Position numbers and translations under genes: made by a program. From a virus: DNA of 64,000 bases. A model generated the notes under the pieces. The model saw only the letters and a program-made list of their open reading frames with translations, searched no databases and was not told the origin of the DNA. This document shows, in pieces, positions 11,223 through 15,967 of this stretch. The stretch is from positions 2,919-66,918 of the IMG/VR virus record IMGVR_UViG_3300030107_002828; one strand, given 5' to 3'. Every line of letters starts with the position of its first letter. Position 1 is the stretch's first letter.

Positions 11223-11241
11223 AATTTTAATTTAAAGTTAG

Positions 11242-11350
11242 TGGACGTGGCAGGAATCGAACCTGCGTTACCATGACTCGGTTGTATTCAGTGTAATACA
11301 CTTCCGTAATGCCTAAAAAGGACACACATACACTTACTGTTACCACGTCT
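11242..11350 (-). ncRNA. tRNA-like element TLS1 (acceptor and T-arm only recognisable)
   Basis: On the minus strand the 3' part is a textbook T-arm (GCAGG, loop TTCGATT, CCTGC) followed directly by CACGTCC and a discriminator A, and the 5' end AGACGTG pairs with it over 6 of 7 bases. The 79 bases between contain no normal D-arm or anticodon arm, position 8 is not U, and only small hairpins can be drawn. It fills the gap between two genes. It is therefore called tRNA-like, not a tRNA. A degenerate or intron-bearing tRNA is the alternative. Confidence 0.6.
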
Positions 11351-11378
11351 CGGTCAATACCTTATCACGCCCTTTTGT

Positions 11379-12337: not shown

Positions 12338-12342
12338 TATAG

Positions 12343-12416
12343 ACGCGGGAGTAGGATTCGAACCTACGACCTCGAGCTTATGAGGCTCGCGAGCTGACCA
12401 ACTGCTCTATCCCGCA
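12343..12416 (-). tRNA. tRNA with CAT anticodon (Met, or Ile2)
   Basis: A complete cloverleaf on the minus strand: acceptor TGCGGGA with TCCCGCG, D-arm AGAGC with GGT in the loop and GCTC, anticodon stem CGAGC / GCTCG around loop CTCATAA (anticodon CAT), variable AGGTC, T-arm GTAGG TTCGAAT CCTAC. CCA is not encoded. The first pair is T-G. The anticodon stem lacks the three G-C pairs of bacterial initiators, so elongator Met or lysidine-modified Ile is more likely. It is the only canonical tRNA in the window and sits at the 3' end of the large structured RNA block. Confidence 0.9.
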
Positions 12417-12627
12417 ATATTTTGGGTGATACTGTGCACGTATCCACGCTTTCATAATTGTACTAAGTGAACATCTTGCCTAAGCTCAGAACGCAAAGTC
12501 ACAATTGGGGTCTAGTGTCTAACTCATTAACCTGACTCATATTTACCAGGTTGAGAAATTTGTAGTTTTCCGCGTATCCGTTTAGTAGCTACTACACTAT
12601 TCCGTCCTTCGTGTTTTAACCCATTAG

Positions 12628-12675
12628 AGAGCATAGCGGGATTCGAACCCGCACTTTAGTACCGTAGTATGCTCT
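12628..12675 (-). ncRNA. tRNA-like minihelix TLS2 (acceptor plus T-arm, no D or anticodon arm)
   Basis: Minus strand: GAGCATA, 15 bases, then T-arm GCGGG TTCGAAT CCCGC, then TATGCTC. The 7-bp acceptor is perfect (8 bp with one flanking A-T pair) and the T-loop matches the tRNA consensus, yet only 15 bases replace the whole D, anticodon and variable region. The shape is that of the acceptor minihelices known as minimal substrates for RNase P and tRNA-binding proteins. Confidence 0.6.
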
Positions 12676-12746
12676 GTTGCCTCTAGAGGCCTTGAGGACT
12701 TACATCTGCTTTGAACCATATAGGTGCATCAATGCCTCTTATATTT

Positions 12747-15676: not shown

Positions 15677-15719
15677 TTAATATGAAGAGAATCGAACTCT
15701 TCCTCGTTCCAAAATATTA
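15677..15719 (-). ncRNA. tRNA-like minihelix TLS4
   Basis: Minus strand: TAATATT, 11 bases, T-arm AAGAG TTCGATT CTCTT, then CATATTA and a discriminator A. The acceptor pairs 6 of 7 bases, all A-T, so it is weaker than TLS2, but the T-arm is complete and the 43-base layout (acceptor, short linker, T-arm, acceptor) is the same. It occupies the gap between two genes. Confidence 0.45.
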
Positions 15720-15736: not shown

Positions 15737-15967
15737 TTACTGTACTTCAACAACTTCTCTTACAACAACTGGTACATTAGTTGAACTTGTGTATGAGTTA
15801 TACTTTATAAAACATGGAAGTGTATTCAATTTATCTTTCATAATTTCATAAACTTCATCATGATTATAAGATACTTTCTTACCATTTTTAAATTCAACAT
15901 TTATAATTGTGTTTTTACCGATTAGAGATTTTCTTACAACGAATCTCTTTAAATTTAAGTTTGACAT
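15737..15967 (-). CDS. Hypothetical beta-rich protein, 76 aa, behind promoter P5
   Basis: A 76-residue protein (starts M-S-N-L-N-L-K-R-F-V-V-R-K) with a GKKVSYNHDEVYEIMKDKL middle that resembles small KTSC-type or WGR-less beta-hairpin/helix domains, and a Val-rich C-terminus. It has a 74-base leader after the predicted P5 start. Function unknown; a nucleic-acid-binding role is possible from the basic N-terminus. Confidence 0.65.
   Translation of the reverse strand: MSNLNLKRFVVRKSLIGKNTIINVEFKNGKKVSYNHDEVYEIMKDKLNTLPCFIKYNSYTSSTNVPVVVREVVEVQ

Follow-up and report, generated by a model that had tools for sequence, protein, structure and literature searches.

The window analysed here is a 64,000-nucleotide (nt) stretch of the viral record IMGVR_UViG_3300030107_002828; coordinates refer to it, and the elements discussed lie on its minus strand. 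At 12674–12628, an acceptor stem and a T-arm are joined by a short linker into a tRNA minihelix that has neither a D arm nor an anticodon arm. A second, weaker example lies directly downstream of a small gene, here called F. An earlier note had proposed both from the sequence. Both are real: the stems of the first are perfect and far above chance, and the second folds weakly but is conserved.

12628–12674, minus strand: minihelix with a 7-base-pair (bp) acceptor, 15-nt linker, 5-bp T-stem, loop TTCGAAT and discriminator T
15677–15719, minus strand: second minihelix, immediately downstream of gene F and with an 11-nt linker, TTGGAACGAGG
15740–15967, minus strand: gene F, 76 amino acids; the second minihelix occupies a conserved slot on its 3' side

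The 5' acceptor strand GAGCATA (12674–12668) pairs at all seven positions with TATGCTC (12635–12629). The linker, CTACGGTACTAAAGT (15 nt, 12667–12653), contains a D-loop-like GG and leads into the T-arm GCGGG-TTCGAAT-CCCGC (12652–12636), whose 5-bp stem is perfect; the two perfect stems, the loop and the linker length had been described in the earlier note. The discriminator T at 12628 is followed by CTAA to 12624, and A12675 could form an eighth acceptor pair with T12628. The fold has a minimum free energy of -16.7 kcal/mol (z -2.6) and contains the 12-bp acceptor/T stack with T-loop that characterizes minihelix-type substrates of RNase P. Five perfect T-arms were found in a scan of the whole window (15696, 13060, 12647, 12362 and 11261), all on the minus strand, and in each case N-CTA comes after the acceptor 3' strand.

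The element is not a tRNA. It scores 23 bits against the Rfam tRNA model (RF00005; gathering score 29), in an alignment that skips the D and anticodon arms, and ARAGORN makes no tRNA call there. The RF00005 features that it has are the acceptor, the T-arm with a TTCRANY loop and the D-loop GG. A cloverleaf or an intron-containing tRNA was rejected because the 5' acceptor strand lies only 15 nt from the T-arm, a spacing that is kept in relatives. Nor is it the tRNA-like domain (TLD) of a transfer-messenger RNA (tmRNA; RF00023), since it has G3-C70 in place of G3.U70, T73, and no P2. Permissive ARAGORN tmRNA calls at the minihelix, with tags such as ATEHTTVLKCGFESRYAL, were discarded, as the tags are a mere translation of the minihelix.

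Conservation of pairing in related loci

The window's terminase is nearest to that of MW202828 (a metagenome-derived podovirus genome) and next to those of Flavobacterium, Cellulophaga, Tenacibaculum and Maribacter phages, which makes a flavobacterial host probable. Related loci are given L-numbers (L130 is MW202828 and L133 is Cellulophaga phage phi38:1; G000 is the window's own record); 43 related contigs in IMG/VR were reached through the ligase gene. Many elements of the minihelix kind were found in the relatives, and the comparison places the 12628 element in a large, previously unannotated RNA family of marine phages that have terminases similar to those of Cellulophaga and Flavobacterium phages. 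When 1.46 Mb of related loci were scanned for an acceptor, an 8–30 nt linker and a T-arm, 59 matches (46 distinct) were obtained, against 1–2 in dinucleotide shuffles; this ratio is inflated for those loci in the set that had been fetched by T-arm or linker pattern, and the unbiased tests stand independently of it. The linker GG is present in 33/33 minihelices, though the scan did not demand it. By analogy with tRNA, we infer that this GG corresponds to G18-G19 of the D-loop, docking on the T-loop.

Homologues for covariation analysis were picked by linker and T-loop alone, ignoring pairing, and the pairing-selected matches of the architecture scan were kept out to avoid circularity. The exact linker followed by any five nucleotides and TTCGA has five further occurrences in IMG/VR, in other phage contigs, all of which retain 7/7 acceptor and 5/5 T-stem pairs. 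Linker and structure are conserved in L046 and L050–L054. The L051 and L052 copies carry GAACATG/CATGTTC and GTGGG/CCCAC, which are compensatory changes around an unchanged linker. Occurrence in bacterial chromosomes or prophages was dismissed, as the exact linker pattern had no match in 257 Gb of bacterial genomes; the minihelix was also not found in the fetched parts of phi13:2, phi38:1, elemoA 13-1A and MW202828.

The permutation test on the linker-15 family (three cores only) is weak, at 51/2000, so the strong statistics rest on two sister families. The linker-9 sisters (ATGGTTAAT, 20 distinct cores) form 218/220 expected pairs (permutation mean 134.5, maximum 162, 0/2000), and the linker-12 sisters (TTGGAGCAGAGG) form 217/220 (permutation maximum 192, 0/2000). 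A pair-counting tool gave 99.1% paired positions against 61.2% in shuffles and 32–53% for slid structures, with 79 double-change cells where 23 were expected. The acceptor letters vary freely (AAAGCA, AGTACG, GAGATA, GCTGAG, TGCCAT and others), which makes an amino-acid identity unlikely; what stays fixed is the linker with its GG, together with the T-loop and the N-C-U/A tail. The family is thus conserved in structure rather than in acceptor sequence, through compensatory change. The earlier note had named a full cloverleaf in relatives, or pairing that is not conserved, as grounds for abandoning the minihelix; both were looked for in the relatives and neither was found.

The second minihelix (TAATATT, 11 nt, AAGAG-TTCGATT-CTCTT, CATATTA, A) has a T.C mismatch at 7-66, where a mismatch is the norm for the family; slot-1 relatives have 11 bp plus a conserved mismatch at this position. 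As a single sequence it folds weakly (z -0.7); the evidence for it is conservation and not energy: a minihelix follows gene F in 15/19 loci of an unbiased, protein-seeded set. On the synteny map most of the phages displayed have it directly behind gene F; its linker measures 9, 11, 12, 14 or 26 nt depending on the phage, and the gene downstream is not conserved. The distance from discriminator to start codon is exactly +3 (NCTATG) or, for the most part, 14–26 nt. After gene F we counted 67 cases with a minihelix only, 7 with an intrinsic terminator only, none with both and 42 with neither. The two appear to exclude each other, a small result that is suggestive.

As a separate observation, position 7-66 is mostly a conserved A.C or C.C mismatch in slot-1 minihelices and the linker-9 and linker-12 families (the corresponding window position is 15713/15684), as though a break in the 12-bp stack were selected. 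The gene F protein is itself highly conserved, with 17 invariant columns, and its position is tied to the minihelix, which it might bind. Genes F and G gave no Pfam match and no significant PHROG match.

A modular RNA array with TLD-only tmRNAs

The 12628 minihelix sits in an array of RNA elements distant from genes. The earlier note had overlooked the T-arm elements at 11372–11243 and 13118–13041 and the tRNA-Met at 12416–12342, all on the same strand. It had likewise missed the membership of the minihelix in a family, the TLD-only tmRNA 1.3 kb away and the movable cassette within a modular array.

11239–11372, minus strand: class A element, a TLD-only tmRNA with acceptor GGGCGTG/CACGTCC, G3.U70, A73, a 99-nt insert and tail ACTA
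12342–12416, minus strand: canonical tRNA-Met (CAT) in the same array; its flank, CTATA, resembles the N-CTA tail of the minihelices
12430–12623, minus strand: structured RNA module that begins right at the minihelix 3' end (GGGTTAAAACACGAAGGACGG...)
12624–12692, minus strand: 69-nt cassette made of the palindromic hairpin GGCCTCTAGAGGC, AACA, the minihelix and CTAA
12748–12874, minus strand: RNA X, a structured module of 127 nt (GGCATACAGGTCACGTTAGG...ACCTGTTCCGAAAC), conserved in L046–L050
13041–13118, minus strand: class D tRNA-like element with acceptor AACTAAG/TTTAGTT, T-arm AGAGG/CCTCT and discriminator A

In the window's record, RF00023 matches the class A element and nothing else. It aligns to model positions 1–374 with 36.6 bits (E 1.1e-14; G000:14157-14290), below the gathering score of 47; its relative in L009 reaches 64.7 bits, above that score. 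End-to-end RF00023 matches by short RNAs of 50–164 nt were found in 22/24 related records. The class A insert contains a P2-like stem in place of the mRNA-like domain, and a domain with tag frame and pseudoknots is absent; inserts measure 15–129 nt in 84 distinct copies. ARAGORN calls no tmRNA at 11372–11239. Among the 84 copies G3.U70 is fixed, A73 is conserved, pair 4-69 covaries, and the P2-like stem has 5.9 bp against 4.6 bp in permuted pairs. G3.U70 is the alanine signal of tmRNA. Because the copies were collected through their acceptors, an unchanging G3.U70 is in part a product of that search; independent support comes from the RF00023 match. From the end-to-end match and the missing messenger domain, phages of the window's group are assigned TLD-only tmRNAs. 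On the synteny map, class A often follows a gene of 62–71 amino acids. The 12628 minihelix is tied to this class solely through L050, where its exact 15-nt linker occurs in a class A frame with the tmRNA-type acceptor GGGCGTG/CACGTCC.

Several lines of comparison indicate that the array is built from interchangeable parts. The L046 array matches the window with 99.6% identity over 285 nt downstream of the cassette and 98% over 57 nt upstream, and the 69-nt cassette (12692–12624) is cleanly missing at the corresponding place. It is found elsewhere in L046 and in other contexts in L053 and L054. The stem of its hairpin covaries (GCCTCTAGAGGC / GCCTCGCGAGGC / GTCTATATAGAC). Class A inserts recur outside class A in 41/74 cases, against 0–1 for shuffled inserts. 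From the movement of the cassette and the recurrence of these inserts, the array RNAs read as exchangeable modules, with tRNA-like units among them. In L056, L082 and L089 the module at 12623–12430 follows directly on the 3' end of class A elements, and in L051 and L052 on that of a minihelix. The class D element (13118–13041) is without a recognisable cloverleaf middle, and its homologues in L020, L046, L047, L049, L053, L054 and L072 have variable middles. RNA X gave no Rfam family above threshold; its outer stem covaries (GAGGTGGTG/CACCACCTC here, AGACAGTG/CACTGTCT in L020).

Three smaller observations concern these modules. The module ACTTTGCGTTCTGAGCTTAGGCAAGATGTTCACTTAG is free-standing in the window (12499–12463, minus strand) and in L046 (4837–4873), and lies within the class A tRNA-like domain in L084 (580–620). 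Modules can also nest in one another, as in L128. The spacer TAAAATATA recurs exactly between array modules (window 12880 and 12748, minus strand; L046, L053, L054 and L072), and could be a promoter, a linker or a cleavage site.

Excision by host tRNA processing and its alternatives

The earlier note had offered an RNA-processing signal, a protein recruiter or a tRNA mimic. The acceptor/T-arm core of that interpretation is supported; the choice among the three is a matter of inference. We lean, at somewhat less than an even chance, towards reading the minihelices as units excised by host tRNA-processing enzymes that act as punctuation and scaffold. The 12628 element, an encoded minihelix with acceptor stem, T-arm and D-loop-like GG, would fold within a long early transcript. 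Its 5' end would be cut by RNase P, and the pathway for 3' processing of tRNA would cut after N73. Excision would divide the polycistronic RNA and so provide defined ends for adjacent mRNAs or small structured RNAs. A stable scaffold would remain, and in the class A sisters the same scaffold would hold an RNA module.

Excision is favoured by conservation that is confined to shape, elbow and tail, by the placement of the units between genes or modules, and by the fact that a hairpin of acceptor, T-stem and T-loop is a classic, efficient model substrate of RNase P (PMC11143913). Free acceptor letters fit an enzyme that reads shape. Start codons lie so close behind the discriminator that a stem left folded and uncut would get in the way of the ribosome. 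Also in favour of excision are the start of the 12623–12430 RNA at the 3' ends of two types of tRNA-like element, the tail shared with true tRNAs (in these phages most often N-CTA) and the fact that minihelix and terminator were never found together after gene F. The 12-bp stack acts as a ruler for RNase P, and R73-C74-C75 pairs with GGU of the RNase P RNA (PMC11143913). The N73-C74-U75 of the minihelices is nearly fixed, and the same pairing would need one U.G wobble.

Other observations weigh against excision as punctuation. The tail is CUA, not CCA; G3.U70 is kept in all class A forms, which punctuation alone does not need. The exclusion of terminators amounts to 7 cases only, and in some relatives the gene F slot holds neither minihelix nor terminator. 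The 12628 copy itself appears dispensable or movable, because the L046 array works without the cassette at that place. We hold yet more loosely the broader proposal of a widespread phage system in which natural minihelices, as excisable scaffold and punctuation and as mobile cassettes with swappable modules, would cut long early RNA through host tRNA processing.

The main rival, for class A and perhaps for the small minihelices, is that TLD-like RNAs bind SmpB and block the host tmRNA, as has been proposed for the TLD-only tmRNA of mycobacteriophage DS6A, class A perhaps being charged with alanine. We judge it unlikely as the principal function, though it is compatible with excision and both could hold. 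Class A is a genuine TLD-only tmRNA, given its end-to-end match in most related records and the conserved G3.U70, A73 and P2-like stem; the linker shared in L050 extends the connection to the minihelix; and phage SmpB was found in 0/24 records. A TLD of the DS6A type strongly inhibits tmRNA whether or not it can be charged, perhaps by titrating SmpB (PMC4131195; PMC11915505). The small minihelices, however, have no P2, no G3.U70 and no fixed acceptor identity, and a mismatch usually interrupts them at 7-66. A decoy that diffuses needs neither a fixed slot after gene F nor an end 3 nt ahead of start codons, and plain SmpB titration does not need class A inserts that are swapped modules.

A decoy for another host factor that reads tRNA (a tRNA-modifying enzyme, EF-Tu, the CCA-adding enzyme, or a defence toxin that targets the tRNA elbow or 3' end) is less probable again. 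It would suit an elbow and acceptor end conserved without an anticodon, and several minihelices per genome that are diverse in sequence outside the elbow, but no specific partner was found, and processing better explains the fixed intergenic slots and the tRNA-shared tail. Slightly less probable still is an unexcised cis-regulatory or mRNA-stability element of the adjacent gene, such as a 3' cap for gene F or a control of start sites. The conserved positions directly after gene F and directly before start codons, and the occasional replacement by a terminator, speak for it; the same architecture in many contexts, including gene-distant arrays such as that of 12628 itself, and the unconserved downstream gene speak against it. 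A degenerate tRNA gene or chance hairpin, suggested by the partial tRNA score and a true tRNA 210 nt away, is dismissed on the dozens of homologues with compensatory change, the invariant linker and the near-zero shuffles, and covariation likewise rules out a pseudogene.

Acceptor/T-arm minihelices are central to RNase P biochemistry and to ideas on the origin of tRNA, and the known ones are laboratory constructs. Here they appear to be naturally encoded, in dozens of covarying forms. These are ready substrate sets for probing the requirements of RNase P, 3' processing, CCA addition, EF-Tu and SmpB. With this group one can also test whether the blocking of trans-translation by TLD-only tmRNAs is routine among phages, and the analysis brings to light an array of modular phage RNAs that had gone unstudied.

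We know of no acceptor/T-arm homology between the minihelices and the M3 RNA of phi80 or the C4 RNA of P1/P7. M3 and C4 are phage RNAs processed by RNase P (listed in PMC11143913), and differ from the minihelices in form and function. The synthetic AT1/pMini substrates of RNase P (PMC11143913) share the acceptor stem, T-stem and T-loop only, with the 12-bp stack and elbow loop; they are laboratory constructs with a 3' RCCA, whereas the phage minihelices are natural, end in N-CUA and have a conserved GG-bearing linker. No report of natural phage minihelices of this size was found in the open-licence literature searched. What looks new is the small minihelix that has no amino-acid identity and moves as a precise cassette within arrays of RNA modules.

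A TLD-only tmRNA in a phage already has a precedent, the one phage case in the literature available: mycobacteriophage DS6A (Mao et al., 2009, via PMC4131195 and PMC11915505). Like class A, the DS6A RNA (compared by its published description only) and plastid tmRNAs of ~65 nt that lack a coding sequence have a tRNA-like domain without an mRNA-like domain; DS6A and class A are both phage-encoded. The minihelix at 12628 differs from them in having no P2, no G3.U70, T73 and a linker of only 15 nt. Class A differs in that its inserts are interchangeable modules and that a genome carries many elements, in arrays and fixed slots. Full-length tmRNA is known in flavobacterial phages, namely Cellulophaga phage phi38:1 and the Calle phages (PMC8776804); it has a messenger part, whereas the window's group keeps the TLD alone. 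For phi38:1, the record's feature table has no entry at L133 26805–27164 (minus strand) for the full tmRNA, tail ACTAAT, that ARAGORN predicts there. In MW202828, a tRNA-like element at ~640–700 has an apparent D-arm (CCCC/GGGG) without an anticodon arm, and an ATG start codon stands directly after its acceptor stem.
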